A model generated the notes under the pieces. It was not told the origin of the DNA. It searched no databases and saw only the letters and a list, made by a program, of their open reading frames with translations. Shown here piece after piece: positions 9,674 to 26,267 of a stretch of DNA of 26,267 nucleotides. Both the position numbers and the translations under genes were made by a program. Position 1 is the stretch's first letter. Each line of letters starts with the position of its first letter. Location: positions 1 to 26,267 of the IMG/VR virus record IMGVR_UViG_3300046517_001108. One strand, written 5' to 3'. The stretch is from a virus.

Positions 9674-10214
9674 GACTTCATCCGCTCGAAGCGTTTCTTT
9701 GCAAGGCTCATATAACCGGCGAGCTGCCGTGGCGTCATGTGCCAGATTGCTTCAAGGGAATGTCCGCACTCTCCGGTGAGGAATTCGATGGTGTCGGCAA
9801 AACCTTGAAGCGTATCTTGCGCGGTGGTGGTGCTGCGAATTTTTCCATGAGCGCCGCCCACTGTGCCACGAAAGGGCCGAGGCCATCGGGCATGGTCTTC
9901 TCCACTATTTTGGTGAGCGCCTTCAATTGCTCGGCCGCCGACATCATTGCAGCACGCTTCTCAGCTTCTTCATCACCGGGATGACCGAGGCCGGCTGCAA
10001 GCACCGGACCAATGGCAGGGCCTGCCACTTCCATGATGCCAACCAATGTCAGTGCTCCGTCCTTCTGCATGCGATCCTGCAAGGCCTTCATCAGATCTGG
10101 AAAGCGCGGGATCAGATGCCCGAAGCCTTCCATCGATATGCCATGCACAGTAATTTTCTTGCCGCCGATCGTCACCGTGTCTGGCGCCGGATTGATCGAG
10201 AGAAAGTCACTCAT
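9670..10214 (-). CDS. Tail assembly chaperone, -1 frameshift long form (gpGT-like)
   Basis: Reading the chaperone gene to about 9840 and then shifting to the -1 frame gives a long form ending at 9670. Across the shift it reads WAALMEK then IRSTTTAQDTLQGFADTIEF and continues with EAIWHMTPRQLAGYMSLAKKR. The latter is the typical C-terminal domain of gpGT-like fusions (aromatic, TP-Q, then a basic LAKKR). The -1 ORF has no ATG of its own; its first usable start is a GTG with no good ribosome binding site. In lambda the short and long forms act together, the long one bridging tape measure and tube protein. The fused domain is only about 55 residues, but the layout is convincing. Confidence 0.8.
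9735..10214 (-). CDS. Tail assembly chaperone, short form (gpG-like)
   Basis: The 159-aa product sits between the major tail protein and the tape measure region, the standard place for lambda gpG-like chaperones. It begins SINPAPDTVTIGGKKITVHGIS and is then mainly helical, as in this family; the last part (APPPRKIRFKVLPTPSN and onward) is proline-rich and looks disordered. Chaperones of this class coat the tape measure during tail assembly and are absent from the finished virion. The start overlaps the major tail protein stop as ATGA. A second ORF in the -1 frame overlaps its 3' end and makes the long form described separately. Confidence 0.85.
   Translation of the reverse strand: MSDFLSINPAPDTVTIGGKKITVHGISMEGFGHLIPRFPDLMKALQDRMQKDGALTLVGIMEVAGPAIGPVLAAGLGHPGDEEAEKRAAMMSAAEQLKALTKIVEKTMPDGLGPFVAQWAALMEKFAAPPPRKIRFKVLPTPSNSSPESADIPLKQSGT
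9840..9846 (-). promoter_or_regulatory. Putative -1 ribosomal frameshift site GGAAAAA
   Basis: On the minus strand the chaperone reads ATG GAA AAA TTC; the heptamer G GAA AAA covers the run. A -1 slip keeps perfect A-site pairing (AAA to AAA) and near-cognate P-site pairing (GAA to GGA), and opens the long-form ORF. It is a variant of the lambda GGGAAAG type. I cannot judge a downstream stimulatory RNA structure by eye. Confidence 0.65.
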
Positions 10215-10765
10215 GCCGTCAGGCCCTCATGCAACGCCCGCTCGGTGAAGTGTCCCAGGCCATGCACCGGATGCGCCTGGATTTTTCCCTGCAGCGGGAC
10301 AGTATTCCAATCATCGTTATTGCGGATGAGGAAAAGTGCAGAAGTGGGCGAGAGGTTCACATAGCCGATCCAATCCACCTGCGGCCCTTCGACGTTATCG
10401 CCGTTGATTTCCAGCACGCCGTTAAAGTTCAGCCTAGTGAGCGCCATGATATCCCAACCGGCGCCGCCGGTATTGTCGGTGACAGTGCCGAGGGAAAACA
10501 TGCCGAGGGCAATCTGCGTGATCTCGTCAAGTGTGAAGTTCACCGTGCCCGATGCCAGCGTGACAATAGTTTTGTCAATCAGCCGTGAGCCGCCATAGGT
10601 GCGGGTATGGTCCTTGGTGGTGATGCTGGGAGTGATCGAGAATTCAACGCAGTTGCCAAGATTGACGCGGCCGGCCGTTAGGGCGTGGTCATCCGTGAAG
10701 TAGACTTTTCCGGTGGGTATTTGGTAATTCGTGATCGATGGGATCGTGCCAGGACTTACGGGCAT
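10211..10765 (-). CDS. Major tail (tube) protein
   Basis: The 184-aa product has the size, beta-rich composition and position (after the tail terminator, before the chaperone pair) of a siphovirus tail tube protein. Strand-like segments include GKVYFTDD, VEFSITPSIT, TIVTLASGTVNFTLDEI and WIGYVNLSPTSALFLIRN. AAGGAG upstream of ATG 10765 is a strong ribosome binding site with a 15-nt gap from the previous gene, consistent with high expression. Assignment rests on synteny and fold pattern. Confidence 0.82.
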   Translation of the reverse strand: MPVSPGTIPSITNYQIPTGKVYFTDDHALTAGRVNLGNCVEFSITPSITTKDHTRTYGGSRLIDKTIVTLASGTVNFTLDEITQIALGMFSLGTVTDNTGGAGWDIMALTRLNFNGVLEINGDNVEGPQVDWIGYVNLSPTSALFLIRNNDDWNTVPLQGKIQAHPVHGLGHFTERALHEGLTA

Positions 10766-10780
10766 TGATGTTTCTCCTTG

Positions 10781-11242
10781 TCAGAGTTCGCTGGGGATGA
10801 AGGGATAGGCAACAGTAAAAAACACATTCAGATCGACTTGCGATGAGCGACCCTCGTGCAATGAATTGGTGTGATTGAGGTAACGCGCCCCACGCCGGTC
10901 GCGCCGCCTTCCCGAAGCCGTGCCCGAACACAGCAGTTCTATTTCGCTATCGAACAGGACCGCCTTCTGTACCTTGGCCAACCATTCGTTGGTTACAGTT
11001 CCAATGTTCTCTGGCACATCGCCCAACGACACCACGATAACCGGCGTCATCAATGCGATATTAGGCGCGCTGCCGGTCGCATTCGAGTTGTCAACAGTAT
11101 CCTCGTCGCCATCGAATAGGATAGCCGCCGGCAATTTGGTATCGGCCACGCGGTCAAGATTGCGCGCCGATGTCTCCACCCCGGAGATATTCCCGATCAC
11201 GACAGCCAGACGGGCCAAGATCAACTCGCGGCGACTGCTCAT
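10781..11242 (-). CDS. Tail terminator (gpU-like) protein
   Basis: The 153-aa product begins MSSRRELILARLAVVIGNI followed by a strand/loop with LPAAILFDGDED, a pattern common to phage tail terminator/completion proteins of the gpU type. Further strands (ALMTPVIVVSLG and QVDLNVFFTVAYPF) fit the small alpha/beta fold. It would cap the tail tube and join it to the head. Its ATGA overlap with the head closure gene and its place before the major tail protein match the usual order in siphovirus joining modules. Confidence 0.8.
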   Translation of the reverse strand: MSSRRELILARLAVVIGNISGVETSARNLDRVADTKLPAAILFDGDEDTVDNSNATGSAPNIALMTPVIVVSLGDVPENIGTVTNEWLAKVQKAVLFDSEIELLCSGTASGRRRDRRGARYLNHTNSLHEGRSSQVDLNVFFTVAYPFIPSEL

Positions 11243-11577
11243 GCTTCAAACAGCAGGATCAGCATGATTTCGCCATCGGCCTCGCCGCCGGGTGACGGCA
11301 TCGGCTGATAGGTTTTTATCCGCCACGTCTGCCCGTTAAGAGTGATCTGACCTTCCGGCAGATCCGCCACCGGGATTCCGATTTGCTCCAACTCCCGCGC
11401 CCTGACCCGCGCCACGGGTCGGACGGTTTCGATCTGCGTTCGAGGATCGGGAATGCTGATGCCGCTGGTTCTATCCACGGCAGTGACGGTTGCGGATTGT
11501 CCACCGGCGGATGCAAGGGTGGCCGCGACCCCGAGGGTATTATAGATCGGGTCATAGTGCGTCTGCCAATCGATCAT
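11239..11577 (-). CDS. Head closure / head-tail joining protein (gpFII-like)
   Basis: The 112-aa beta-rich product begins DWQTHYDPIYNTLGVAATL and ends with LNGQTWRIKTYQPMPSPGG and a closing hydrophobic strand. This layout (DPIY at the start; a strand with W-x-I followed by a P-x-x-D/G loop) resembles lambda gpFII-like joining proteins, which close the portal-connector channel. Its neighbour downstream is the tail terminator. It is separated from the gp6-like connector by about 9.4 kb of accessory genes, which is unusual. Both its own start and its stop overlap neighbours by 4 nt. Confidence 0.75.
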   Translation of the reverse strand: MIDWQTHYDPIYNTLGVAATLASAGGQSATVTAVDRTSGISIPDPRTQIETVRPVARVRARELEQIGIPVADLPEGQITLNGQTWRIKTYQPMPSPGGEADGEIMLILLFEA

Positions 11578-14131: not shown

Positions 14132-14137
14132 GTCATG

Positions 14138-14674: not shown

Positions 14675-14696
14675 GAGGAGATCCCTCTGAAGTGGG

Positions 14697-14921
14697 TCAG
14701 GCGCCTGCGGTCAGGCGTGGAATGGTGATGATCGTGTTATCGACATCCGATCCGGCGTCGGTGGATTTAACGCCGTTGGTTGACGTCGTAGTAACCGGCG
14801 CATAGGCGCCGCCGTTCTTCGACATATATAGCTCGAACAATGTCGCGCCGCTCGCTGCTGCGTCAGTATTGGCGATGCTGAAGCGGATGCGGAATGTTGC
14901 CGTGCCTGGATTGAATGCCAT
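14697..14921 (-). CDS. 74-aa protein resembling the N-terminal half of the YDETGET domain protein
   Basis: The product runs FRIRFSIANTDAAASGATLF, then ELYMSKNGGAYAPVTTTS, and ends ITIPRLTAGA. In the phage family I recall, this beta half is followed directly by F-V-A-G-x-Y-D-E-T-G and a second half like the inserted domains of the 751-aa protein. Here it stops just at that boundary and the second half is missing; no remnant is readable in the 22 nt downstream. ATG 14921 directly follows the TAA of the LamG-like gene, with GGAGGA upstream, so it is translated by coupling. It may be a real half-domain subunit or a deletion remnant. Confidence 0.7.
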   Translation of the reverse strand: MAFNPGTATFRIRFSIANTDAAASGATLFELYMSKNGGAYAPVTTTSTNGVKSTDAGSDVDNTIITIPRLTAGA

Positions 14922-15812
14922 TTAATTCGTGTCCTCCGCCGCACCCCATGTCGGCGTTGCATCAACGGCGCCAGTGTCGGTACGAAAACGGAAGTGGCGT
15001 TGGCGTAATGGGGGCGGCGACAAAAATGCTAGAGGCAATTCATATTCTGCCGGGATCAGAAACGAATACGGCTCGCGATGCAGTCGTGCCCATTCATCCG
15101 CAGCCAACGCACGATTCCAGAAATAGGCAGCAGTCGTAATTGAATTACTATACCGAGTTGGTGTAGGTGAATAAGTATTGATTCCGACCGAGGATGTTGC
15201 CGAACTTATTGGACCGGATGCACCAAAAGCAAAAGCTGAACCGGACGCAACGCCATTGCTATACATCTGGCATAGTGCCGATGCGCTCACGGTGAAACTG
15301 CATCCAAAGCTATTGATGACTGATGTCGTGATGATTGGACCCGGACTAACTTCAGTGAAGACGCCCCCGGTATTCCAAAGCGCACGCACCGTTAGCGGGT
15401 TTGATGCTACGCCAATTGATGCGACAACATATGGCGATGCCTCAGGAATTGCATAAGACACCCCAGCAAAGTCAGTCGTGGCAATTGGAGCGCCGATGAC
15501 ATAGGCCCGCCAGTAAATAGAAAATTGTGTCCACGACTTGAATGCCGGCGTTGCCGTTGCGGTCATGCCACTGTTCGCTGCGACCGATTGCAGCCCCGGT
15601 CCTTCCTCCATCGAAGAAATAGTAGCGGCCGACAATGGAGTAAGATTAGGACCCATGCCGGTGATATCGGTCCCGCGCATGACGCCGGGCAGATAACAGC
15701 CAATAAGGCCGTTGGTAAGCGAATGACTCCAATCAATAGTAAGGTTCCCGCCCGGAATCCGTAACGGTCCGGGATTGAGAATGTTTGAGAACGGGCGAAG
15801 AATAGAGGCCAT
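14922..15812 (-). CDS. LamG/concanavalin-like virion protein
   Basis: The 296-aa product has the pattern of a LamG-like lectin domain: an N-terminal SHSLTNGLIGCYLPG, strands around SWTQFSIYWRAYV and a terminal AAYFWNRALAADEWARLHRE motif (near 228-247) that is typical of LamG-type domains in phage proteins ('NRALS-x-x-E-x-A-x-L'). The C-terminal tail is Pro/Arg-rich. It probably binds glycans on the host or on the virion itself. TAATG joins it to the gene upstream. A second, unrelated LamG-like protein is encoded in the distal tail region. Confidence 0.78.
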   Translation of the reverse strand: MASILRPFSNILNPGPLRIPGGNLTIDWSHSLTNGLIGCYLPGVMRGTDITGMGPNLTPLSAATISSMEEGPGLQSVAANSGMTATATPAFKSWTQFSIYWRAYVIGAPIATTDFAGVSYAIPEASPYVVASIGVASNPLTVRALWNTGGVFTEVSPGPIITTSVINSFGCSFTVSASALCQMYSNGVASGSAFAFGASGPISSATSSVGINTYSPTPTRYSNSITTAAYFWNRALAADEWARLHREPYSFLIPAEYELPLAFLSPPPLRQRHFRFRTDTGAVDATPTWGAAEDTN

Positions 15813-16276
15813 TAGGCAATGGCCCGATTATAGCTGCGATATTTTAACAGGTTGCCGCTCGATGCAAGCGCCACTCCGGCCGAATTCCAAAGCACCGGCT
15901 TCCAGGTGCCGGGCGGCATGATGACTCGTGTTAGCGTTCCCGTCTGTGCCTGTGTTGCCGCTACGATGCCGATGCTGCCAACGGAATAATTCGATGGTGG
16001 TGGTCCCGCGGCGGATGAGCCGAAACGCGAATCTCCATAACTCGAAGCATCATCGTTTAGGGGATAAAGATAAATTCCTATAAAGTTGGGAGCAACGAAC
16101 ACCGCACTCGCCAGCACCAGTGAGAAGTCGCAGAAAATATCCAGCGCGGTCTGGTTGGTTACCGCCGCGCCGCCCAAGATCGCGTTACCTGATGCAATGG
16201 AATTTAATTCCGTGGACATCAGCGTGGTCCAGGTAAAGCCTACGCCAGAGCCAGCGATCCATTTTTCTGTTGCCAT
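15812..16276 (-). CDS. Virion protein of unknown function
   Basis: The product is 154 aa when started at ATG 16276, which overlaps the upstream stop as TGATG; a longer in-frame reading from 16366 lies within the upstream gene and has no ribosome binding site. The sequence (ATEKWIAGSGVGFTWTTLMS, then NQTALDIFCDFSLVLAS, FIGIYLYPLND, and YSVGSIGIV) is beta-rich and resembles small phage surface proteins. No family name can be given with confidence. Confidence 0.75.
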   Translation of the reverse strand: MATEKWIAGSGVGFTWTTLMSTELNSIASGNAILGGAAVTNQTALDIFCDFSLVLASAVFVAPNFIGIYLYPLNDDASSYGDSRFGSSAAGPPPSNYSVGSIGIVAATQAQTGTLTRVIMPPGTWKPVLWNSAGVALASSGNLLKYRSYNRAIA

Positions 16277-16901: not shown

Positions 16902-17357
16902 TCAGCCTGCCAAATTGAAGATGCCCGTCGCCGCCGGCGTGATCGTCAACGTGTTGTTGATCGTCAAGTTGAACTGCGCCGTTGAAAGCTGGCTATAGCA
17001 CACCAGTTTGCGGGCAATAGCCGAAGCACCAGAGGCCCAGATCACGGCAAACTTGATGTTCGAAATGGTGCCGCCGGTGCCGGTCCACACGGTGGCCGCC
17101 GCATTGAACCGCATTTGCCCGCCCGATGCACCGGCCGTCCAAGTCTTCGACGCCAATGCCTTGCCCGATGACGAATAGCCGTTCGCCTCGGTCACTTCAC
17201 CGGTGACGCTCGAAATGATCGACAACGTTGCCGTCGCGGCATTCGATGCCGATGTGTAGAGCGCGATGCGGAAGTTGCCGCTCCCCAGATTGATCGGGAA
17301 TGCTTGGCCAAGGTTTCGTTTGAACTTGTTATAAAAGGTCCACGCGCCGACTGCCAT
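16902..17357 (-). CDS. Beta-rich phage structural protein
   Basis: The 151-aa product has the typical layout of a widespread phage family of unknown function: GAWTFYNKFKRNLGQAFPIN, then FRIALYTSASNAATATLSII, EVTEANGYSSSGKALASKTW, a strand QMRFNAAATVWTGTGGTIS and KFAVIWASG. Members lie among head-tail and tail genes and are thought to be virion components. GGAG precedes ATG 17357 by about 8 nt, and 1 nt separates it from the cassette gene upstream. Not assignable to decoration versus fibre from sequence alone. Confidence 0.78.
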   Translation of the reverse strand: MAVGAWTFYNKFKRNLGQAFPINLGSGNFRIALYTSASNAATATLSIISSVTGEVTEANGYSSSGKALASKTWTAGASGGQMRFNAAATVWTGTGGTISNIKFAVIWASGASAIARKLVCYSQLSTAQFNLTINNTLTITPAATGIFNLAG

Positions 17358-17358: not shown

Positions 17359-18243
17359 TTATTTCTCCTCTATTTCCAGTTCCGCGCCAGTGCGGATCAT
17401 TGTCGCAATGAGTCCAGGACCGTGCACGTTCAACTGAAACAGCTCGCCACGTTCCTTAACGAGCTGCAAAAAGTCCTCTGCTTGTTTGGCTTGCCACACC
17501 GAACAGACAAAGCGTTGCGCCAGGTCATCTCGCCCCTTCGGCCGACACCACACGCTCATGGTCTTTTCGTTATTGTTTTCCGCCTGCTCGTAGGCGTGAT
17601 GGTCACCGTCGAGCCAGCATGAGTCGAGGCCGAAAATCTCCAGCCGCTGGAAGCCGAGCATGCGCATCAGCGAGATGGCGCGCATCGAAACGGTCACACC
17701 AATGGTGATCGGGTTAATGCGCTTGAAGTAATAGTCCTCCAGCAACTTGATCTCGTCATCGCCGGCGCTCAGCGCGTGCCAGATGGTGACAATGCGGTCG
17801 CGACACATCTCGAATGTCTTTGGATGGCACTGCGAGGCCAGCAGATAATGGCAGTCATGCACCGGGGTTTCGACAAACCGTGCATTGAATTCGCGCGCAT
17901 CCATGACCACCGCGGCATGCACCCGAATATTATGATCAATGCACCATTGATAGGCGCCGTTGACGGTGAACACCTTGCCGCCGGTGCGCCAGATCGTCTC
18001 GACCAACTCCTTCTCGGTGGTCTTGAGCGACGGCCCGCCCGCCACCAGGATGGCCACGTCGGGGTTGGGATCGTAGGGCATCGCCTGCGGCAGACCGCGC
18101 CGGATATTCTCCGCGACTTGCGCCAGCAACTGTTTGTCTGTCACGTTCACCCTGCAGTCGGGTGAGAACGATATTTCGAGGACTTTCTTCGGATCAAAGG
18201 TGACGTGTGTTTGCGCCGCGTCGTGCCTGCCGCGCCCGCTCAT
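17359..18243 (-). CDS. DUF115/MptE-like Rossmann protein (GT42-like), second copy in the cassette
   Basis: The 294-aa product (started at ATG 18243, which forms ATGA with the upstream stop) has the marks of the DUF115 family: VAILVAGGPSL (63-73), TVNGAYQW (93-100), TVSMRAISLMRMLGFQRLEI (184-203) leading to FGLDSCW, and a late NVHGPGL. The layout (GGPSL loop, Ser-rich helix, 'hydrophobic-GLD', C-terminal HGPGL) is also that of GT42 sialyltransferases, so nucleotide-sugar use or transfer of a phosphate-linked group is a fair inference. It shares a layout with the gene at 20310-20948. Members occur in surface-glycan loci and, as here, in phages. The enzymatic reaction is unproven. Confidence 0.75.
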   Translation of the reverse strand: MSGRGRHDAAQTHVTFDPKKVLEISFSPDCRVNVTDKQLLAQVAENIRRGLPQAMPYDPNPDVAILVAGGPSLKTTEKELVETIWRTGGKVFTVNGAYQWCIDHNIRVHAAVVMDAREFNARFVETPVHDCHYLLASQCHPKTFEMCRDRIVTIWHALSAGDDEIKLLEDYYFKRINPITIGVTVSMRAISLMRMLGFQRLEIFGLDSCWLDGDHHAYEQAENNNEKTMSVWCRPKGRDDLAQRFVCSVWQAKQAEDFLQLVKERGELFQLNVHGPGLIATMIRTGAELEIEEK

Positions 18244-18818
18244 CGTTGCACCACGTAAAGACCCGTTCCGCACAGGTCGCGGGCTTCAACCAATTCACCG
18301 AGCGTCGCGATGCGGTCGCGCCACCATGCGAAATTCTGTACGGTCAGATGCAGCGGCTTGCCGATGAACTTACCGAATCCGTCGTCATGCAAGGCAATTT
18401 GTAGCCATGTCGTCCGGCACGCCTCGAACATGCGGTGAAGCGCCAGCATGGTATATTCGGGCGGCAGATGTTCCATCACATCGCAGCAAAAGCCATAGTC
18501 CCACAGGCTTCTATCTTCCAAAGCCCAATAATCCCATAGCGCTTCCTGCATGAAGCGATTGCGGTCGATCTGTGGATCAAGCGCGGCGTCAGTCAGATCG
18601 AGCCACGAAACGTCGAAGCCGAGGCTGGCGAACTTCAACCCGGCGCAACCAGACCCACAACCAATGTCGATAAGGCTCGCCCCGACAACAGGCTCAAGCA
18701 CCTCGATGAAGCGCTCGACGTTCTCCAGGCCGGGCGAAAATACTTTATATTCCGGGTAGCTCCAGATTTCCTCGTACTTGTGTCGTTCCGGCGCCGTGCT
18801 GTCGACAATGTGCAACAT
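18240..18818 (-). CDS. SAM-dependent methyltransferase 2
   Basis: The 192-aa product has a complete class I methyltransferase core: motif I DIGCGSGCAG (51-60), an acidic loop after it (WLDLTDAAL) and the post-II motif CCDVMEHLPPE (111-121), which is typical of UbiG-like, glycan- or small-molecule-type enzymes rather than DNA methylases. HLT and QNFAWWRDRIATLG follow near 157-174. It begins 3 nt after the stop of the first methyltransferase, with AGGAG upstream. As part of the cassette, it probably modifies a sugar or sugar-linked intermediate; the substrate is unknown. Confidence 0.82.
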   Translation of the reverse strand: MLHIVDSTAPERHKYEEIWSYPEYKVFSPGLENVERFIEVLEPVVGASLIDIGCGSGCAGLKFASLGFDVSWLDLTDAALDPQIDRNRFMQEALWDYWALEDRSLWDYGFCCDVMEHLPPEYTMLALHRMFEACRTTWLQIALHDDGFGKFIGKPLHLTVQNFAWWRDRIATLGELVEARDLCGTGLYVVQR

Positions 18819-18821
18819 TGC

Positions 18822-19520
18822 TTAACTTCTCCTGAAAGCAAAGGCCCCGATGTCCTCACGCCCCGCACTCATTTCCATGTTGCTGCTGCCGGCCAGCACG
18901 AAGCCAAGGCCGCGCATGACAGTGATCAGGCCGTTCCGCGTCCAGTACCAGCAGTGCTCGTCTTTGCGGTAATGCTTGGAGCGCAGCACATGCTCGGCAT
19001 CACGGAATATCGGCACCGCCAGGAACAGCCACTGCTGCACATTGGCCAGCAACGGCCGGAAATCATGCATGTGTTCGAGCACATCCCACATCGAAATGGC
19101 TGGCACCGAGTTGGTATAAGGATCGCGCCACAAATCGCGTTGCTTCAGCCAAGCAATACCTGCCGGATTGATGTCGAAGCCAAGCGTCGAGCGGTAAAAA
19201 ATCGCATTTCGTCTTTCGATGAACGCCCCACAACCAATGCCAACATCTACCAGTTCGCCGCGATGATATTGCGCCACGAACCGCACCCGGCCCGCCATCA
19301 GGCTGCGGCCAATCGGACTGTCCGCCTGCTTGGCGAAGCGATCGAAATACGCCTGGTCATAAGGCGATGCCGTTACTGGGAAATAGCCGATGCCAAGCTC
19401 GGGGAACCATTGCAGATGTTTGCCGGCGATGCTGTCATAAAGCGTCGGTCGAGGAAACGGCAGAACTGTTGCATCAGGTCGGGGATCGCCTTGTTGCAGT
19501 TGTGCCGCATGTTCGTGCAT
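18822..19520 (-). CDS. SAM-dependent methyltransferase 1
   Basis: The 232-aa product has a class I methyltransferase core: motif I DVGIGCGAF (92-100), GFDINPAG, motif DVLEHM (146-151) and the late EHCWYWT that is typical of the UbiG-like and glycan-associated group. The upstream segment FPELGIGYFPVTASPYDQAY resembles the N-terminus of phage methyltransferases of this type. ATG 19520 is chosen because AAGGA lies 9 nt upstream; the extra in-frame TTG at 19526 has too short a spacer. This start places the first 148 nt inside the GT9-like gene in another frame. Substrate unknown. Confidence 0.8.
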   Translation of the reverse strand: MHEHAAQLQQGDPRPDATVLPFPRPTLYDSIAGKHLQWFPELGIGYFPVTASPYDQAYFDRFAKQADSPIGRSLMAGRVRFVAQYHRGELVDVGIGCGAFIERRNAIFYRSTLGFDINPAGIAWLKQRDLWRDPYTNSVPAISMWDVLEHMHDFRPLLANVQQWLFLAVPIFRDAEHVLRSKHYRKDEHCWYWTRNGLITVMRGLGFVLAGSSNMEMSAGREDIGAFAFRRS

Positions 19521-20356
19521 TGGCAAAAGTCCTTCGGGGTAGCGAAGCCGATGCGCGAACAGTCGAGCCGCGGATCGAGCACACGGCCTGGTGCGTTATG
19601 CCCGCCCTGGCCGCCGAGCACGACAAAGCAGTGCTTGTTGAGGGCGAGCGCCGCCGGGATGATGAAACCCATGCCGCCGATAATGATGTCGGACGTCGCC
19701 AGTAGCGCCAGCATATCCATCGCCGGCAATTCGCCGTGAATGAACTCGCTGTCGCCCTTAGGCGGTACTCCAATGAACCACTCGGCGGCATGGGCAACGT
19801 CGGCCACGCAAACGATGTGATGCGTCGGCCGTAATGCCTCGACGATATCGAGAATATATTGCGGTTCGGGATTGCGCGCCGCGTTGAACCATTCACTCCT
19901 GACGGTGATCGGGCGAACAAAGGCGATCGGCTTATCTGTCTTGATCGGTGATGGTGGCAATGGTGGCAGATCGAAAAGCGCCGGATCCAATTTGATGCCA
20001 AACGATTGTTCCATGCCGTTAATAATCGAAAGCCCCATCTGGAATGCGCGTTGATAACTATTGCGGATAGCCTGCATGCGTGTTGGCCGCGGTGCCCAGA
20101 TCACGCGACTTCTTGCTACGTTCTTGTTCTGCGTACGCAGCCGCGAATAACCGCCGGTTGGCCTGACAAATTTGATCGGCAGATCCGCATATAATTCCGG
20201 CCACGAAGTCTCTAGGTAAATTTCCCGCTGCAACGAAAGCGCATGAATGAACGCGCGTTGATAGATATTATCGCCCAACCCCTGCATGCCGAGGATGTGC
20301 AGCCGCCGGTCAGGCGACGCGAGCGATGGATGCGATCGGATCGGCTGCAGCAACAT
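19373..20356 (-). CDS. GT9-like glycosyltransferase (heptosyltransferase family)
   Basis: The 327-aa product has the GT-B/GT9 pattern. The N-terminal domain opens HILGMQGLGDNIYQRAFIHA (residues 20-39), the usual 'GLGD-x-x' glycine loop with following helix. The C-terminal domain has PIAFVRP (143-149), HIVCVAD and the loop SDIIIGGMGFIIPAALALNK (222-241), equivalent to the nucleotide-sugar binding 'G-x-x-G-x-x-H' zone, followed by CFVVLGGQGGHN. It ends with a Cys-rich segment FCQCTNMRHNC that is common in phage members. It probably transfers a sugar from a nucleotide donor. Start at ATG 20356 (GGAAG upstream) overlaps the previous gene by 47 nt; the last 148 nt overlap the methyltransferase. 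Confidence 0.8.
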   Translation of the reverse strand: MLLQPIRSHPSLASPDRRLHILGMQGLGDNIYQRAFIHALSLQREIYLETSWPELYADLPIKFVRPTGGYSRLRTQNKNVARSRVIWAPRPTRMQAIRNSYQRAFQMGLSIINGMEQSFGIKLDPALFDLPPLPPSPIKTDKPIAFVRPITVRSEWFNAARNPEPQYILDIVEALRPTHHIVCVADVAHAAEWFIGVPPKGDSEFIHGELPAMDMLALLATSDIIIGGMGFIIPAALALNKHCFVVLGGQGGHNAPGRVLDPRLDCSRIGFATPKDFCQCTNMRHNCNKAIPDLMQQFCRFLDRRFMTASPANICNGSPSLASAISQ

Positions 20357-20948
20357 GGTCTTCCAATCGCACGATCGGCCAAAGCGTCAGCGCGCTTCCC
20401 GGCGAGGCGTTGACGCATTCGATATTCATCTGCGTCAGGTCTTCGGCAGCCTTCGGCAGATCGGTCTGTTGCCGCCGCCAGCAATCTGCCGTCGGTTTCC
20501 ATGGGTGCGGCGGATGATGATGGATCTTGCCGTCCGGCCCGGCCTTCTGGTCGATGCCGAGCAGGACAATCTTTGCCACGCCCAGATGCACCGCCAGATT
20601 CATCGCCGCGGTGAGCGTCGTATTTTTCACCATCAAGGTATGCGTGTCGGTGGCCAGGCCGGGCGTGGTCTTGCGGATCATCGTCAGGATCTGCGGCGGG
20701 CCGGTTGCCGAAGTCGAGCAACTGATGATCTTGCCGCCAAAGTTCATCAATGCCTTGCGATGATGCAGGAACCAACGCATGTCGGCAAACACCACATACT
20801 GCGCCCATGGCACCGCAACATATGAGCTGTTGATGGCGATGACGTTCCTGTCCTTGAGCAACTCAAGATTCTGCTCAAGCAGTGAAGTGCCGCCGCCGAT
20901 AATATAGCCAACATCCCCTTTCCATAACGGCTCGACGCGCCAGCTCAA
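20310..20948 (-). CDS. DUF115/GT42-like Rossmann protein, first gene of the cassette
   Basis: The 212-aa product starts at TTG 20948, overlapping the connector stop as TTGA. It has GDVGYIIGGGTSLLEQ (11-26), INSSYVAVPWAQYVVFADMR (39-58), KNTTLTAAMNLAVHLGVAKI (108-127) leading to VLLGIDQ, a His-rich patch HHHPPHPW (143-150) and the ending ECVNASPGSAL. This is the layout of GT42-type sialyltransferases and DUF115 proteins: glycine loop, hydroxyl-rich helix, 'hydrophobic-GID' and N-x-SPGS-x-L. It is smaller than the second copy at 17359-18243. Donor and acceptor are unknown, and catalytic identity is an inference from the fold pattern. Confidence 0.75.
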   Translation of the reverse strand: MSWRVEPLWKGDVGYIIGGGTSLLEQNLELLKDRNVIAINSSYVAVPWAQYVVFADMRWFLHHRKALMNFGGKIISCSTSATGPPQILTMIRKTTPGLATDTHTLMVKNTTLTAAMNLAVHLGVAKIVLLGIDQKAGPDGKIHHHPPHPWKPTADCWRRQQTDLPKAAEDLTQMNIECVNASPGSALTLWPIVRLEDHVAAADPIASIARVA

Positions 20949-21625
20949 ACGTTGAGCCTCGCGTAATTCTGGATCATTTCAGTGACGTTTGGCGGCAGAA
21001 TTGAACTGACCGGAGCAGCAGCACCCTTGCCGGCGGACGCATAGCGGAAGCGATTGTAATAATCCCCATATGTGACGGTCGTATCGCCATGCGTCGTCGA
21101 GCGGATGGACGGATCGCGGTTGCCGCTGAAATGCTGCCACCGCAAAGTCTCGATACACGCCTGTGACAGCAATACCGGCGCATCGTCGGGCAAATCATAG
21201 CCGCCACTGTATTGCGCAATCACTTCGCCCGACCAATGACTATTGACCGGCGAATAGGCCCACGACCACATGCCAGGAACCAACCAAAGTAGACCGGCCT
21301 CCTTGTCGAGCTCGTAGCCGGTAGGGTCGGCTATGCTGCCGCCGACCGTGATCGAGTTAAGTTCGCTGACCGGAAATTGGCGCAGATTAATCCCGCGTGT
21401 CGGATCATAAAACGACAGGCGAAAGCTTTCCGAGACCGTCAGCATAGCGAAATAGCGGTCGCACAATTCACCGATCATCTTGGAAATCGCCGTGATCTTC
21501 TCAGCCATGATCGCATCGTCGGCGGTATTACCGGGGATGCCGAGCGCGACATTAACCGCATCCACCGTGGTCAGGTCATAGACCGGCGATGTCGGTTCGA
21601 GGATGGTGAAAAGTGATTTCCTCAT
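20945..21625 (-). CDS. Head-tail connector (gp6-like, DNA packaging adaptor)
   Basis: The 226-aa product begins FTILEPTSPVYDLTTVDAVN, then AEKITAISKMIGELCDRYFA, followed by a strand segment and late PDDAPVLLSQACIETLRWQ. This is the helical layout of gp6/gp15-like adaptor proteins that dock under the portal: N-terminal 'L-T-x-D-x-V' segment, long helix with two-basic/aromatic end, C-terminal helix 'P-x-x-L-x-x-A-x-x-E/L'. It is placed after portal and collagen-like genes, and both ends overlap neighbours by 4 nt. The head closure partner lies 9.4 kb away, beyond the cassette and the decoration genes. Confidence 0.82.
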   Translation of the reverse strand: MRKSLFTILEPTSPVYDLTTVDAVNVALGIPGNTADDAIMAEKITAISKMIGELCDRYFAMLTVSESFRLSFYDPTRGINLRQFPVSELNSITVGGSIADPTGYELDKEAGLLWLVPGMWSWAYSPVNSHWSGEVIAQYSGGYDLPDDAPVLLSQACIETLRWQHFSGNRDPSIRSTTHGDTTVTYGDYYNRFRYASAGKGAAAPVSSILPPNVTEMIQNYARLNV

Positions 21626-22179
21626 GGCTCATATTTACCCGTCGGCCCCTGTGGACCGGGCGGACCTCGTTCGCCGTCCTTGCCGTTGCTGCCCTTCCTG
21701 ACAAACAATTGCCATTGCTTGGAGTCGCCCGGCTTGTCTTTTGCGCCCTCTATCATGCAGACCCAACCATTGCCGCCGCAGGAAACCGTGTCGTCAAGAT
21801 GGAAATCATCATCATGTTTCCATGGTCCGCGATGGCGCCCGCGCGAGGGCCCTGCACCGTCCTTGCCGTCTTGGCCCGGCGGACCTGGCGGTCCCGGCTC
21901 GCCCTTTTCGCCATGAATGGACAGGCCGTCCCTGCCATCTTTGCCATCCTTGCCGGGGATGCCGACTTCGCCACGCAAGCCGATATCGCCGCGATCGCCT
22001 TTTTCGCCGCGCGGACCCTGCAGTCCGTTTTCTCCGCGGTCGCCTTTTTCCGGCATACGCGCCTCGAGCGCAGCTATGCGCTGTTCCTGTTGAATGACGA
22101 TCGCTCTATAAGGCGCAATGTGTTCCTTGATGATCTCGGCTATTTCTCGCCCGAGCATATCCTCAAGCTGCAGTTGCAT
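21622..22179 (-). CDS. Collagen-like protein with central carbohydrate-binding-like module
   Basis: The 185-aa product begins with a helical, coiled-coil-like stretch (about 1-42; LEDMLGREIAEIIKEHIAPY), then Gly-X-Y triplets from about residue 46 to 109 (roughly 20 triplets with one interruption at GLSIH), a non-collagenous centre (about 112-162; DDTVSCGGNGWVCMIEGAKD and WQLFVRKG) and 7 more triplets to the end (GSNGKDGERGPPGPQGPTG). The centre resembles the CBM5/12-like module of phage fibres. Collagen helices form trimers, so the protein is probably a fibrous trimer on the head or neck. ATG 22179, preceded by AGGAG at 8 nt, overlaps the portal end by 17 nt. Confidence 0.82.
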   Translation of the reverse strand: MQLQLEDMLGREIAEIIKEHIAPYRAIVIQQEQRIAALEARMPEKGDRGENGLQGPRGEKGDRGDIGLRGEVGIPGKDGKDGRDGLSIHGEKGEPGPPGPPGQDGKDGAGPSRGRHRGPWKHDDDFHLDDTVSCGGNGWVCMIEGAKDKPGDSKQWQLFVRKGSNGKDGERGPPGPQGPTGKYEP

Positions 22180-23518
22180 GGCCTAGGCTCCTGCGGATCG
22201 CGTCGAGCAAGGCGCGCTGATTGATTGGGGTCGGTGCTGGCGTTGTCGGATTCGGCATCGGCGCTGGGGCAGCCGGCAAGGCCGGCGCATTGGCACGGTT
22301 GGCCAATGCCTGCAAGGTAAACATTTGCTGCTGCGCCATCGGCGATTCGCCGCCGGTTACATCGACATAACCCAGCACCCTGCGCGCTTCATTGGGCGAT
22401 AGGATGCCCTTGCTTACGGCCTCTGCCAGCACCGTGATCTGCGTCTGCGAATCCATGCGGAATAAGCCGGTCAGGTCGAATTCGGCGCGATAGCCGGCAC
22501 CGATCAAGCCAAGGCCTTCCGACAGGATCAGTTCGATGTGCTCGATCAGACTTTGCAGACATTGCTTGTAATATTGCAGATCGAGCAGTTCAGCGTTTTG
22601 ATAATTCGGCGGATCTTTCGCCCCGACCATGAACGCCGGGATGCCGAATGCCGTGCAGATCGTTTCGTTGTTGTGCTTGAGCTGCTCGATCAATTGGCTA
22701 TCGACGGCGTTCTGTTGCAGCGGATTCCAGGTCAGCCCGCTACCAAGAATCGCCACCTTGCCCTGATTGATGCCAGTATAATTGTTATGCCAGTTGTTCT
22801 CCAACCGCGCTGCGGTGGCCTCATCGATGTTGCCGGGCGCCGTCAGGATGCCGGAAGGTCGCGCCGCATTGCCGAAAAACATTGCCGAAAACTGTTCAAT
22901 CGACAGCCCGCGTGCAGCAGGCGCGGCCGTGGAATAAAGCGGCGACATGCCGACCATCTTATGGAACAGGCAATTGATGCGGTCGTGCATGATCTCACTG
23001 GCCGGAATCACGACATGTTCTTCGGTAATACCGGCCAGGTGATCGGTATTGAGATCGTAGAATAACGATCCGTCCAATGCCTCCATCGGCTTGACGCGAT
23101 TGGGATCGAGCACGTGCAGCGCGCTGACGACGTTGCGATTGTCGCGTTCCTTGAGAACGTAAGCGTTGCCGGCCCGCAGTTTGGAGATCATCCAGCTTTC
23201 AAAGAATTGAATGCGGGTCTGATAGCGATTTGGCTTATTGAGGACGGTTGAGAAAGCGCTTGCCGTAGTCTCCTGCCATACCTGATCGACCGGCTGCATC
23301 AGCTTGAGCCGCATCTTGGCGATATCGGCTGAAATCATGGCGACGCAACGATAAAGCGTCGCGTTCTGCAGCGGATTCTCCATGCTCAGCGGTTGATTAC
23401 GCTGCCAAGCTCCGGCAAATGGCTCGCGCACGATCGGCCACCAGCCGCGGTCATAGATGTTGGTCGGCAGCATGGGCGACTGCTTGCGCACGGAAACCTC
23501 GAAGCCGAGGATTCTCAT
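22163..23518 (-). CDS. Portal protein (HK97 family)
   Basis: The 451-aa product has HK97-type portal features: NATLYRCVAMISADIAKMRL near the N-terminus, LLD/LKAGNAY-like SKLRAGNAYVL with the following LDPNRVKP, the EIMHDR and PLYSTAAPAAR region, the channel-forming helix with FFGNAARPSGIL, then AFGIPAFMVGA, the helical crown segment and a C-terminal Pro/Ala-rich tail (PALPAAPAPMPNPTTPAPTP). The portal is the dodecameric DNA gate at one vertex. Its ATGA overlaps the small gene upstream. Unlike in HK97, where the portal gene precedes protease and capsid genes, here it follows them. Confidence 0.93.
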   Translation of the reverse strand: MRILGFEVSVRKQSPMLPTNIYDRGWWPIVREPFAGAWQRNQPLSMENPLQNATLYRCVAMISADIAKMRLKLMQPVDQVWQETTASAFSTVLNKPNRYQTRIQFFESWMISKLRAGNAYVLKERDNRNVVSALHVLDPNRVKPMEALDGSLFYDLNTDHLAGITEEHVVIPASEIMHDRINCLFHKMVGMSPLYSTAAPAARGLSIEQFSAMFFGNAARPSGILTAPGNIDEATAARLENNWHNNYTGINQGKVAILGSGLTWNPLQQNAVDSQLIEQLKHNNETICTAFGIPAFMVGAKDPPNYQNAELLDLQYYKQCLQSLIEHIELILSEGLGLIGAGYRAEFDLTGLFRMDSQTQITVLAEAVSKGILSPNEARRVLGYVDVTGGESPMAQQQMFTLQALANRANAPALPAAPAPMPNPTTPAPTPINQRALLDAIRRSLGHATAA

Positions 23519-23709
23519 CCTTTCTCGGCCTCGAGTTTGCGATGCCGGTAGCGCTGTTTTTTGCGCACCGGCACCACATCATCACTCTCCGCAGCCAGCT
23601 TGGCCGCGGACAACACCATGCGATGCGCGTCTGAAAGCGGCTCGAATATTTGGCCTGCCGCAAGCTTGCGGTGGTTATAATCGAACGACTTCAATGCGCG
23701 CATCATCAT
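23515..23709 (-). CDS. 64-aa small head-region protein
   Basis: The product begins MMMRALKSFDYNHRKLAAGQ, then EPLSDAHRMVLSAAKLAAES, and ends in a basic tail (RKKQRYRHRKLEAEKG). The start 'RALKSFDY-x-L-x-AG' resembles small uncharacterised proteins of phage head modules. Three ATG codons in a row overlap the capsid stop as ATGA at 23706-23709, and the exact start is uncertain within 6 nt. The stop overlaps the portal start. A head assembly or capsid-associated role is inferred from its place between capsid and portal. Confidence 0.7.
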   Translation of the reverse strand: MMMRALKSFDYNHRKLAAGQIFEPLSDAHRMVLSAAKLAAESDDVVPVRKKQRYRHRKLEAEKG

Positions 23710-25052
23710 CCGGTCACCGCCCCACCGTAGGCAGCGTTTGTCATATAAAACACGCCTTTGTCTCGACCACGCATCCATGTGATGTAACGCTCGGCACGCA
23801 CGAACACCAAATTGTTCTGGAATGCCGAGACCAGGTGGTAGTTGCCGGCCGCAGGTGCCGAATCCAGTTCAACCGATGCCTCGCGTGACACATCGATTTG
23901 CAATCCGCCCTCGTCCGCCACAAACACCGACGGTGGATGAATTGCAGTGATTTGCCCGGCCGGTGAGTTATTCGAGGTCAACACCGTGATGCCGAGGATA
24001 TTGCCGCCATTGCCATTGACATTCGGGAACGCCACCACGCCCAAAGTTGTCAGCATGGTGCCGATCGAAGTCGCCAGCACCGGCTGCATGATCAGCGTCA
24101 GGTTATCGGTCGGGATATTGTACTCCTGGAAGTGGTACAGGATCTGCCGGATATCATGGATCACCGCGGTGATATCGGTACCGGAAGCTGCATCGCTGTC
24201 GGCACCATTGGTGATCGATGCCGGCGACACGTTGGTCACAGCGGTAACCGATGGCTTGATGAACTGCTCGTCGAGGAATTTGGCGATGCCCTTGGCGAGG
24301 TTATCACGCACCAGCATTTCAACCGACGGGCTTGAGAAGCGCGCCAGTTCGTCGGTGACGCCCATGATGCACGCCGTCTTGGCAAACGTCAGCGTGACGG
24401 TGTCGAACGTGCCTGCAGCCACTGGCTTGCTGGCGCCTTCCCCGACCCACTGGGCCGTGATGACGCTATTTTCGCGCGGGATGCGCGAGTTAAATGGCAC
24501 CCGCGTCAACCCTGGAATGCGGCCGAGATAGGTCTGCGGCACCAGAAATTCGAGAAATTCACTGGCGAGGTTCTGCGCGTAGACCAAGTTGCCGGCCCAT
24601 GTTGCCGAGGTAACCGTGCCGGTCGCCACTGCTGCCTTGATATCCATTTCGATCTGTGGCCACTGCCCGCAGTATTGTCGCGCCACGGCAATAACATCGC
24701 GATGATAAACATCGGCGTGTAACTGGCAGGCGAGCCGCTTGATCAGGCCGAGGCCTGGCGGCAGCGTCGGTGCCTTCACCTGGATCGACTGCGAATGCAT
24801 CTCGATGCCATCGCTGTTCGATACCGGCTTTGCCGTGCTTATCAATTCCTTTTCGATCAGCCGGCAGTCGGTGAGCTCGCGATCGACCGACTTGATAACG
24901 GCCGAGTGTTCGTCAAACGCATTCTGTTCCGCCTCGTCCTTGGTGCGGTCTTCTTCAACGATCTTGCTTTGGATTGCGTCACGCGCGGCCACTTCGGCGG
25001 CGCGTTTTGCCTCGAGGTCTTTCATCCTCTCGGCGTTGGTCTTCGTGGCCAT
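23706..25052 (-). CDS. Major capsid protein precursor, nested internal start
   Basis: An in-frame ATG at 25052 begins ATKTNAERMKDLEAKRAAEV, which is exactly where an HK97-type capsid precursor would begin with its delta domain. GGAGG at 25061-25065 lies 8 nt upstream, the best ribosome binding site I see in the head module. Use of this start would give a 448-aa precursor separate from the protease fusion and so allow the large excess of shell protein over protease that assembly needs. Lambda uses the same logic for its C/Nu3 pair. Whether both products exist is not shown by sequence alone. Confidence 0.7.
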   Translation of the reverse strand: MATKTNAERMKDLEAKRAAEVAARDAIQSKIVEEDRTKDEAEQNAFDEHSAVIKSVDRELTDCRLIEKELISTAKPVSNSDGIEMHSQSIQVKAPTLPPGLGLIKRLACQLHADVYHRDVIAVARQYCGQWPQIEMDIKAAVATGTVTSATWAGNLVYAQNLASEFLEFLVPQTYLGRIPGLTRVPFNSRIPRENSVITAQWVGEGASKPVAAGTFDTVTLTFAKTACIMGVTDELARFSSPSVEMLVRDNLAKGIAKFLDEQFIKPSVTAVTNVSPASITNGADSDAASGTDITAVIHDIRQILYHFQEYNIPTDNLTLIMQPVLATSIGTMLTTLGVVAFPNVNGNGGNILGITVLTSNNSPAGQITAIHPPSVFVADEGGLQIDVSREASVELDSAPAAGNYHLVSAFQNNLVFVRAERYITWMRGRDKGVFYMTNAAYGGAVTG

Positions 25053-25643
25053 AGTCGTGGCCTCCAATTTGATGGAACGGGATGCCGCGACAGCGACGGA
25101 TTTGCCGGAATGGCCTGACGAGGCCGGGGTCACTTCTTGCGTATCGCCGGACGCGGCGCGCAATCCGTGATAAATGGCGCGAATGGTATGGATGGAAGCA
25201 TCAACATTGGCGGGAATCGTAACGGCCGATAATTCGAGAATTTCATACTCGTCGTATTGAATCCCACCGCCCTTAAGCATCGTGACCTTGTCGGCGGCAG
25301 CCTGGAACCCGATTGACACCGCACGCACCAATCCCAATTTGATTGATTGCCACGCCTCGTCGAGCCGGTCCTTTAATTTGCCAGGCTCTACCGATTTGGC
25401 GATTTTCGCCCTGAACGGAATCCCGTCGTCACGCGCCTCGGCCCACACCACATGTCCAATTGGTTCGCCTGAACGATGCTGCCATAGCATCGGCATCGGC
25501 AGGCTGAACTTGGCGCCGCGCGGCTTGACGATATCGCCGACGCGATCGACCGTTGGCGTCGAGGCAACGCCCTCGATGATGCGCTGATCTTCATCAAACG
25601 ATTTGATGTCGAGCACCGCGTAGGCGCGGTTGAGTTTTGACAT
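23706..25643 (-). CDS. Fused prohead protease - major capsid protein (HK97 type)
   Basis: The 645-aa product joins two usually separate proteins. The N-terminal S78-like protease carries the expected catalytic positions: H56 in QHRSGEPIG, S110 in VRAVSIGF and E137 in ILELSAVTIPANVDA. A linker then leads into a coiled-coil delta domain (about 198-270; AERMKDLEAKRAAEVAAR) and the HK97-fold shell protein (QWVGEGASKPVAAGTFDTVT, TACIMGVTDELARF, KFLDEQFIKP). The protease would trim the delta domain and itself during maturation. ATG 25643 has AAAGGA upstream; a further in-frame codon at 25670 overlaps the terminase end. There is no stop between the parts, but there is a strong internal start. Confidence 0.9.
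   Translation of the reverse strand: MSKLNRAYAVLDIKSFDEDQRIIEGVASTPTVDRVGDIVKPRGAKFSLPMPMLWQHRSGEPIGHVVWAEARDDGIPFRAKIAKSVEPGKLKDRLDEAWQSIKLGLVRAVSIGFQAAADKVTMLKGGGIQYDEYEILELSAVTIPANVDASIHTIRAIYHGLRAASGDTQEVTPASSGHSGKSVAVAASRSIKLEATTMATKTNAERMKDLEAKRAAEVAARDAIQSKIVEEDRTKDEAEQNAFDEHSAVIKSVDRELTDCRLIEKELISTAKPVSNSDGIEMHSQSIQVKAPTLPPGLGLIKRLACQLHADVYHRDVIAVARQYCGQWPQIEMDIKAAVATGTVTSATWAGNLVYAQNLASEFLEFLVPQTYLGRIPGLTRVPFNSRIPRENSVITAQWVGEGASKPVAAGTFDTVTLTFAKTACIMGVTDELARFSSPSVEMLVRDNLAKGIAKFLDEQFIKPSVTAVTNVSPASITNGADSDAASGTDITAVIHDIRQILYHFQEYNIPTDNLTLIMQPVLATSIGTMLTTLGVVAFPNVNGNGGNILGITVLTSNNSPAGQITAIHPPSVFVADEGGLQIDVSREASVELDSAPAAGNYHLVSAFQNNLVFVRAERYITWMRGRDKGVFYMTNAAYGGAVTG
25061..25065 (-). 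promoter_or_regulatory. Internal Shine-Dalgarno GGAGG for capsid protein
   Basis: The minus strand reads TTGGAGG, then 8 nt, then ATG (25052) in frame with the protease-capsid ORF. The match to the anti-Shine-Dalgarno is better than that of the upstream start at 25643 (AAAGGA). Confidence 0.7.
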
Positions 25644-25659
25644 GGGTTTTCCTTTGAGT

Positions 25660-26267
25660 TCAGCCGACAAAGAACATCTGAAAGGCGGGCGCCTCTGTCG
25701 GCCTGTCGCTCATGACCATGGCCGCATCGAACAGCGCCATGGCGGCGTCGATCTTGGCATCGCCGGCGTTCTGTTTGGTCATGCGTATAGCCGTGGCGGT
25801 CGGCTCTATTTTGCAATTGCCCACACACCACGACATCAAATCGGATTTGCTATGCCACAGCGTGCCGTTGGCCAATTTGCGTTCGGTGCCCTTGATCGCA
25901 TTCATCATGCGATAGCCTTGCGGCGCGCCGATCAGGTTCTTGTCGGCAACGGAGACTCCGATGCGTCCGAGCGCGTCCACGACTTCACCGAGGCCAGCAG
26001 GGTCAACAGCGACAGCCGCCAAAAGATTTCTTCGCTTGATGTCGGAAATAATCTCAATGATGGCGGTGATGTCATCCAGTTCGTCTTTGACAATTGTCAA
26101 TTCCCCACTAGTTTGGAAATCCTGCAGCGTTGCCGCGATGGTTTGCCTTCGCTGCAGGACGCTCTCGTGACACCAAGCATGTGACCAGGAAAGCCAGTGT
26201 TTGGTCTCGCGGCAGCGTCCGAGAGTACAAAGCCCGAACAAGTCATCCAGCCCGCCACCGTCGATCC
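25660..26267 (-). CDS. terL: Terminase large subunit, C-terminal nuclease domain (partial)
   Basis: The reading frame is open to the window edge, so the ATPase half is missing. What is present is the RNase H-like nuclease of the packaging terminase: GIDGGGLDDL-type motif at the edge (IDGGGLDDLFGLCTL) with the first metal-binding Asp, WLSWSHAWCHES, then AVDPAGLGEVVDA with the second acidic position and NAGDAKIDAAMALFDAAM with the third. The protein cuts concatemers and pairs with the portal to fill the head. TGA at 25660-25662 precedes the protease-capsid start by 16 nt. The order terminase then protease-capsid differs from HK97, where the portal comes between. Confidence 0.9.
   Translation of the reverse strand, partial: IDGGGLDDLFGLCTLGRCRETKHWLSWSHAWCHESVLQRRQTIAATLQDFQTSGELTIVKDELDDITAIIEIISDIKRRNLLAAVAVDPAGLGEVVDALGRIGVSVADKNLIGAPQGYRMMNAIKGTERKLANGTLWHSKSDLMSWCVGNCKIEPTATAIRMTKQNAGDAKIDAAMALFDAAMVMSDRPTEAPAFQMFFVG

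Follow-up and report, generated by a model that had tools for sequence, protein, structure and literature searches.

A conserved and mobile glycosyltransferase-methyltransferase gene set among the head-tail joining genes of phages

Actinobacteriophages offer a precedent for sugar-modifying enzymes encoded among virion genes. In the functionally parallel set of phage Corndog, gp35–gp38 supply glycosyltransferases and an O-methyltransferase from a position between portal and protease in the virion operon; methyl and glycan modification of the capsid has been proposed, and the modifying enzymes were detected in infected cells, not in virions (PMC4351075). For actinobacteriophages, glycans on the C-termini of capsid and tail-tube proteins are reported in work cited in PMC12619734; that paper, PMC11256854 and PMC13313380 also cite Freeman et al. 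2023 for the glycosylation of Che8 virions. Here we describe a cassette of five glycosyltransferase and methyltransferase genes in a 26,267-base stretch of virus DNA, referred to below as the window, which is the entire IMG/VR virus record IMGVR_UViG_3300046517_001108 and is probably a fragment. As in Corndog, glycosyltransferases and a methyltransferase share an operon with virion genes, but the set in the window follows the head-tail connector. The actinobacteriophage sets act in mycobacterial hosts and have a reported acceptor, whereas for the window cassette no acceptor was found. Neither Corndog nor Che8 is among the phage records matched by the first three cassette proteins (P0001, P0002 and P0003), and the likeness is one of gene content and proposed function.

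Two further carbohydrate-modifying systems invite comparison. TibC heptosylates an autotransporter protein and carries a four-Cys iron finger (PMC4358343). The O-antigen conversion genes of the Pseudomonas aeruginosa phages D3 (iap, orf28 and wzy) and PAJU2 (gp24) also modify carbohydrate, with other annotated functions; the role of the D3 genes in serotype conversion is cited in PMC7326022, where orf12 and orf13 are genes of phage YA3 and not of D3. These four genes lie outside the neck genes, three of them on the other strand, and outside the late virion operon, whereas the window cassette lies inside it.

The cassette is real, conserved and mobile, and it is a variant of phage glycan-modification gene sets, not a new kind of system. 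Its first three genes, hereafter the trio, encode a GT42-like glycosyltransferase, a GT9-like glycosyltransferase and an S-adenosylmethionine (SAM) methyltransferase. We lean, by a modest degree, towards the explanation that the trio glycosylates and methylates a virion protein late in infection from host sugars, as in the actinobacteriophages.

Layout of the cassette and linkage of the trio

The connector, the five cassette genes and the gene that follows them are listed here, with the matching family and its match value in brackets.

20945..21625, minus strand: head-tail connector, directly upstream of the cassette (phrog_442, head-tail adaptor, 5.3e-15)
20310..20948, minus strand: P0001, GT42/DUF115-like glycosyltransferase, trio gene 1, with a TTG start (phrog_4603, 6e-28)
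19373..20356, minus strand: P0002, GT9-like GT-B glycosyltransferase, trio gene 2 (phrog_6804, 2.1e-84)
18822..19526, minus strand: P0003, SAM methyltransferase, trio gene 3 (PF13489 Methyltransf_23, 6.8e-10; phrog_6564, 2.7e-62)
18240..18818, minus strand: P0004, SAM methyltransferase-like, gene 1 of the second module (Methyltransf_12, 1.1e-4, below cut-off)
17359..18273, minus strand: P0005, MptE-like/DUF115, gene 2 of the second module (PF01973, 3.2e-15)
16902..17357, minus strand: phrog_644 protein, 1 nucleotide (nt) after P0005 (phrog_644, 7.5e-19)

The first-pass annotation of this DNA had placed five coupled open reading frames (ORFs) on the minus strand within the late operon after the connector, and both the coordinates and the PHROG matches agree with it. 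It had also given overlaps of 4 to 148 nt, which holds for four of the five junctions. Recomputed from the DNA, the connector and P0001 overlap by 4 nt, P0001 and P0002 by 47 nt, P0002 and P0003 by 148 nt if P0003 starts at the ATG at 19520 and by 154 nt if it starts at the TTG further upstream (19526), and P0004 and P0005 by 4 nt or 34 nt, depending on whether P0005 starts at the ATG at 18243 or at the GTG at 18273; P0003 and P0004 are separated by a 3 nt gap. Promoter-like and terminator-like sites across 16–24 kb of the window are not above chance. Co-expression with the virion genes, as had been claimed, is probable from this embedding, and late timing would be the natural presumption. All five are real genes under purifying selection, with ratios of nonsynonymous to synonymous substitution (dN/dS) of 0.02–0.38 against eight relatives for P0001–P0003 and seven for P0004 and P0005; two pairs of relatives give identical values, which leaves six and five distinct comparisons, respectively.

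Relatives were collected in IMG/VR scans that kept the best 80 loci of 396 (scan A1), of at least 573 (A2) and of at least 586 (A9), so that locus frequencies are biased to near relatives and carriers; loci numbered L are the viral contigs and named phages from these scans. For linkage, 168 loci with the GT9 gene were grouped into 68 clusters at 90% identity. A P0003-type gene directly follows the GT9 gene in 60 of the 63 clusters with enough downstream sequence, and in L066 and L085 it lies some 0.5 kb farther downstream; L161 is the only one of the 63 in which no P0003-type methyltransferase was detected. A GT42-like gene is found at most 2.5 kb upstream of the GT9 gene in 53 of the 60 clusters with enough upstream sequence. 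The first three genes are one conserved unit.

The same unit is present in cultured phages, and a PHROGs family exists for each of its proteins, which overturns the earlier statement that no described system has exactly this set; the Corndog genes (PMC4351075) count against that statement as well. The trio is gp10-gp11-gp12 in PAJU2, right after head closure, and gp5-gp4-gp3 in Klebsiella phage Eowyn, and Pseudomonas phage Psp6, whose host is Pseudomonas putida, has it with the GT42-like gene 344 nt before the other two, according to the record's annotation. All three share the window's order of GT42-like, GT9-like and methyltransferase gene, whereas in D3 the trio is split, with the GT42-like orf7 separated from the orf12-orf13 pair by the connector, the head-closure gene and one more gene. 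The families are the same as in the window in all four phages (phrog_4603, phrog_6804 and phrog_6564). In PAJU2, Psp6 and D3 the GT9 and methyltransferase genes overlap and lie among head-tail joining genes, and in the T4-like cyanophage BUCT-ZZ01 this pair follows gp13- to gp16-type neck and packaging genes. The PAJU2 record goes back to Uchiyama et al. 2009, as referenced in PMC7326022. In the open-access literature, as far as it could be consulted, we found no paper on the trio; subscription journals lie mostly outside that search, so absence is not proven.

Searches of 50,697 phage records with tblastn matched the GT9 protein in 29 (23 of them Pseudomonas phages), the P0003 methyltransferase in 30 and P0001 in 23, of which 19 are Caulobacter or Brevundimonas phages; the diverged P0001-type copies of PAJU2 and D3 were detected with PHROGs and not with tblastn. 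P0004 was matched in a single record, an uncultured phage, and P0005 in none, and by this search no P0004-P0005 module is seen in PAJU2, Eowyn, Psp6 or D3. Across 84,980 bacterial and archaeal genomes, one peptide pattern returned five loci. Since virion genes are labelled at all five, the trio family looks phage-borne and not a host gene, within the limits of one peptide pattern.

The last two cassette genes behave differently. In five loci (L172, L173, L174, L175 and L177), P0004-type, P0005-type and phrog_644-type genes occur in that order with no trio gene detected in the available flank, and the L172 relative of the phrog_644 gene is likewise phrog_644. Therefore the five genes, which the first-pass annotation had taken as one set, are two separable modules, and the phrog_644 protein is a candidate partner or acceptor of the second. 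A 751-amino-acid protein of degenerate short repeats ("LALSG..P" type units) is encoded at 11876–14131 of the window on the minus strand; it has no PHROG match, and its relatives accompany the P0004-P0005 module in L172–L174 and L177. The second module is also seen in another setting: in the Manatee Spring phage (L006, 8001–9385) a P0004-like methyltransferase gene directly follows the major capsid gene, and next comes a gene whose product is a weak MptE-like match (E 0.0022).

Protein families and folds

P0001 scores 17.1 bits in Pfam, below the cut-off. Its AlphaFold2 model has a pLDDT (predicted local distance difference test) of 93.4, and in a second-look structural alignment the nearest structure is the GT42 enzyme Cst-I (2p2v, Z 12.8, 185 residues aligned), with CstII at Z 12.3; sialyltransferases fill the first eight rows, and the MptE-type structure 8sd5 reaches Z 11.3. 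In Foldseek the model has no match at E 0.001 or better, the best being a human sialyltransferase at 3.6e-3. The fold is thus like that of Cst-I, CstII and the DUF115/MptE proteins, while likeness in sequence is weak (E 0.13 for the profile against CstII). In the weak alignment with CstII a GPS-type loop and an invariant Asn (N40) line up, and the alignment stops short of the CstII catalytic His. The PHROGs annotation of phrog_4603 is "alpha-2,3-sialyltransferase."

P0002 matches no Pfam family. Its model (pLDDT 90.0) has the GT9 fold, and the best Foldseek match is TibC (4rap, E 7e-9), compared with 5e-7 for the lipopolysaccharide (LPS) enzyme WaaF; TibC was already among the sequence matches before the fold search. 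The second-look alignment again gives TibC (Z 18.1, 263 residues aligned, root-mean-square deviation 3.4), tied within 1 with the GT9 structure 3tov (Z 17.4), then WaaF (1psw, 16.9) and WaaC (15.4–15.8). A 7-row sequence profile finds solved structures weakly (1psw at E 0.021, TibC at E 0.06), and a 52-row profile finds none. A GxGD motif, whose invariant Asp is the probable base, and a Cys-His cluster are kept in 52 of 52 aligned sequences, the latter comprising C278, C280, H285 and C287 (CxC-x4-HxC) near the C-terminus. TibC likewise has a conserved Cys-containing cluster near its C-terminus, though with four Cys where these sequences have three and a His, so the cluster resembles the TibC iron finger without matching it. 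Two TibC donor contacts also seem not to be kept: in a weak hidden Markov model alignment, Leu- and Pro-type positions stand opposite TibC Arg-286 and Trp-305. The same alignment leaves out TibC 226–230, which includes the donor contacts Thr-226 and Lys-230.

The third trio protein belongs to Methyltransf_23 above the Pfam cut-off, with a profile match to UbiG at 0.0017, and its SAM-motif residues are kept in 34 of 34 aligned sequences. P0004 reaches 23.3 bits against Methyltransf_12, for which the cut-off is 30, and its D(I/W)GCGxG motif is kept in 13 aligned relatives. P0005 scores 56.8 bits with PF01973 against a curated cut-off of 34.6; since its sequence profile finds nothing below E 0.35 among solved structures, the assignment rests on Pfam. 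In the same way, the GT9 and GT42 assignments rest on folds and PHROGs because direct sequence matches are weak. The identities proposed at first sight, two DUF115/GT42-type proteins, a GT9 enzyme and two SAM methyltransferases, are thereby kept, with P0004 at sub-threshold level in Pfam; that the methyltransferases are "glycan-type" is something we infer.

Position in the neck and exchange between lineages

The late genes of the window are on the minus strand: the C-terminal part of a terminase is followed by a protease-capsid fusion, the portal, a collagen-like protein and the connector, with the tail genes beyond, and PHROG matches are seen to terminase, capsid, portal, connector, major tail and tape-measure families. 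Besides those already listed, the following can be placed.

23706..25670, minus strand: protease-capsid fusion (phrog_617, major head protein, 4.9e-116; phrog_80, head maturation protease, 1.9e-32)
22163..23518, minus strand: portal protein (PF04860, 7.1e-86)
21622..22179, minus strand: collagen-like protein (PF01391, 9.1e-11; phrog_1289, 4.9e-6)
11239..11577, minus strand: head-closure or head-tail attachment protein (PF05354 Phage_attach, 26.3 against a cut-off of 26; phrog_82, Hc1, 7.6e-4)
10781–11242: tail terminator, labelled by position, with no PHROG match
10211..10765, minus strand: major tail protein, whose divergence tracks that of the cassette (phrog_807, 5.2e-16)

The cassette therefore sits in the window between connector and head closure, the head-closure type gene at 11239..11577 being the neck gene that, in relatives, comes next after the cassette; between it and the trio lie the second module, other unassigned ORFs and the repeat protein. 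Opposite to the late genes, an ORF at 46–558 on the plus strand presumably resembles an HNH-type endonuclease.

For position in general we used 78 loci (the 68 GT9 clusters and 10 added loci), which are not all independent, as L098 and L180 look like the same prophage, and in four of which no methyltransferase was seen. Virion genes, with depositor labels or PHROGs included, occur in the available flank of 75 of the 78, the flank being up to 10 kb a side and not always the adjacent gene; the other three are L144 and L158, where the pair lies among replication genes, and Eowyn (L009), whose neighbours are unnamed. In 30 loci the GT9-methyltransferase pair stands between connector and head closure, in 8 between head closure and neck gene, in 6 between capsid and connector and in 1 between capsid and portal; elsewhere the borders are other or partly visible. 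The earlier description of a glycan-building set embedded in the head-tail joining module is thus well founded, and many phage relatives carry it at the same place. The presence of the same module at four or more different slots points to selection for co-expression with assembly genes.

Empty sites were sought in 175 distinct loci, 64 of which have both the connector and the terminator border. Ten loci have head-closure, neck and tail-terminator genes without the trio, and the connector-to-terminator interval measures 814–1090 nt in the eight of them for which it is available, against 2219–11354 nt where it is occupied; a ninth trio-less interval, that of Psp6 (L004), was not counted as empty, since its trio lies before the connector. 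Two of the ten, L178 and L179, were also read gene by gene and pass straight from head closure into the neck gene, with no trio; their neck proteins share 75% and 72% identity with the D3 one. In four loci a GT42-like gene and other genes take the place of the pair. The existence of empty, trio-occupied and otherwise-occupied intervals suggests that modification genes are exchanged at the neck. D3 orf11 (L001, 7184–7684), a KilA-N/ORF11CD3 domain gene between head closure and the GT9 gene, is another indication of extra genes entering this interval.

Neck intervals with a GT42-like gene but other companions lie at L204 9813–11227, L236 8881–12962 and L239 16716–20170; L204 has a Methyltransf_24 gene and L236 a weak Glyco_transf_8 match. 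A 2-oxoglutarate-Fe(II) oxygenase appeared among 44 interval ORFs scanned together, perhaps L236 11030–11782 on the strength of its motif.

Gene distances indicate exchange of the cassette between phage lineages. In 23 loci with all genes, GT9 distance correlates with that of the methyltransferase (rho 0.80), the GT42-like protein (0.76), connector (0.72), head closure (0.67), terminator (0.82) and tail tube (0.77), and much less with portal (0.24) and capsid (0.32); with the tail tube controlled, the correlation with portal is −0.03. In larger, unequal sets the values for portal (0.40) and capsid (0.34) lie beyond all 199 permutations, and the contrast with the tail genes (0.88) holds. Between D3 and PAJU2 the GT9 proteins are 80% and the methyltransferases 74% identical, as compared with 22% for portal, 15% for capsid, 23% for connector and 35–51% for other neck and tail genes. 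Because the pair is far more alike than capsid and portal, it is, on these comparisons, mobile as a unit. The exchange also makes a lineage-specific capsid sequence an unlikely acceptor.

Function of the trio and its alternatives

In the explanation that we prefer, the trio would be made late, alongside the neck and tail proteins, and would use host activated sugars to build a short glycan on at least one virion protein, most likely on the neck or tail side. The TibC-like GT9 enzyme would put a first sugar on Ser or Thr, the GT42-like enzyme would add a second, possibly CMP (cytidine monophosphate)-activated, sugar, and P0003 would methylate the product to leave a methyl-capped glycan. The P0004-P0005 module, travelling with the phrog_644 protein, may add a further modification, perhaps on that protein. 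The particle could be shielded or the behaviour of its tail tuned, as proposed for actinobacteriophages. Timing, donor, acceptor, order of steps and benefit are what we infer from gene identity and place. Support for virion glycosylation comes from the conserved linkage of the trio and its place among virion genes, from the closeness of the P0002 model to TibC, a protein-glycosylating enzyme, from the location of the D3 and PAJU2 serotype-conversion genes elsewhere, from the Corndog parallel and the glycans on actinobacteriophage virion proteins, and from the label "structural protein" that the depositors of PAJU2 (AP009624) gave to its GT42-like ORF010. The GT9 fold alone does not prove the acceptor.

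Several observations weigh against virion glycosylation. No virion acceptor was found, and the cassette is not linked to any one structural gene. The C-termini of capsid and tail proteins give no coherent signal in their Ser/Thr content: between carriers and 10 cassette-free loci, medians over the last 30 residues are 0.133 and 0.100 for capsid and 0.167 and 0.233 for the tail tube, and of nine proteins six differ at nominal p < 0.05, uncorrected for lineage, with capsid, connector and tape measure up in carriers and tail tube, collagen-like protein and terminator down. In L158 and L144 the pair lies among replication genes with no GT42-like gene detected, so the proposition, checked here, that such genes always flank connector genes fails. 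The PAJU2 label could be a mislabel, given that the Corndog enzymes were not in virions, and the likeness of the D3 and PAJU2 pairs would also fit a cassette matched to their shared host, P. aeruginosa. It is the missing acceptor, the replication-gene loci and the uninformative Ser/Thr content that hold our preference for virion glycosylation to a modest one.

The collagen-like protein, which the first-pass annotation had offered as a candidate acceptor, was rejected as a dedicated one, being present with and without the cassette. Among 80 portal-related loci, a gene for the collagen-like protein or its C-terminal domain occurs in 7 of 7 with the GT9-methyltransferase pair and in 63 of 73 without it, and among the 42 with at least 5 kb after the portal the collagen gene is found in 41 and the pair in only 5. 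Relatives of the collagen-like protein share a common C-terminal domain of the phrog_1289 "portal" family.

The two replication-gene loci differ in their surroundings. In L158 the pair (9564–12071) belongs to a T4-like replication cluster that also has a clamp loader; it lies between a regA-type translation repressor gene and an Hsp20 gene, upstream of DNA polymerase. The pair of L144 lies between exonuclease and DNA polymerase genes; about 2 kb after it, still within that span and directly upstream of the polymerase gene, comes a gene (13059–16142) for a collagen-like protein of 1027 amino acids that matches tail-fibre PHROGs.

The main rival, possible though clearly less probable, is that late in infection the cassette modifies a glycan of the host envelope, such as the LPS core, which would keep released progeny from being lost on debris or lysing cells, or would block superinfection. 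GT42 enzymes of Campylobacter act on lipooligosaccharide, GT9 is also the fold of the LPS heptosyltransferases WaaF and WaaC with the Z scores given above, the D3 and PAJU2 pairs from one host species are far more alike than any measured neighbour, and no linked virion acceptor was found. However, unrelated phages carry the genes in the midst of virion genes (75 of 78 loci), no excess of promoter-like sites surrounds the window cassette, the serotype-conversion genes of D3 and PAJU2 lie outside the neck genes, and late synthesis would leave little time to alter bulk LPS.

It is doubtful that one or more of the proteins is by now a virion or assembly component and no longer an enzyme; the GT42-like protein, for instance, could be part of the neck. 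The PAJU2 label would suit this, as would the GT42-like gene that stands near the neck without the pair in 9 of the 42 portal-related loci; against it are the invariant GT9 and SAM-motif residues, the low dN/dS and the existence of empty-site phages, from which it follows that relatives can assemble without the proteins. Glycosylation and methylation of phage DNA bases against restriction is very improbable: phage glycosyltransferases that modify DNA do exist (cited in PMC12619734) and the L158 pair lies inside a replication cluster, but the complete genomes of D3, PAJU2 and Psp6, in which many genes are unannotated, have no annotated base hydroxymethylase or hypermodification gene, and the P0002 model has a heptosyltransferase-like fold; none of the 50 matches listed for each search is a DNA glucosyltransferase.

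A more specific form of virion glycosylation can be put forward only tentatively. Many Gram-negative phages, the model phage D3 included, may divert host LPS-core sugar donors into a methyl-capped O-glycan on neck or tail, with the neck as a general exchange site; the TibC-like GT9 enzyme might take ADP (adenosine diphosphate)-heptose and the GT42-like enzyme a CMP-sugar such as CMP-Kdo, a suggestion that is no firmer. If this were true, the trio would correspond, in viruses, to the islands that glycosylate autotransporters and flagellin in bacteria, and it might represent the first viral heptosylation of a protein.

As far as the literature at hand goes, virion glycosylation is established in actinobacteriophages. 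If the trio does likewise, phages of Proteobacteria, those of P. aeruginosa included, would commonly have sugars on their particles, which would matter for recognition by antibodies, for the stability of the particle and for adsorption. The complete genome records of D3, PAJU2 and Psp6 show the cassette inside a late operon that is ordinary in other respects. A swap site in the neck would also explain the "methyltransferase" and "hypothetical" genes in the head-tail modules of phages.

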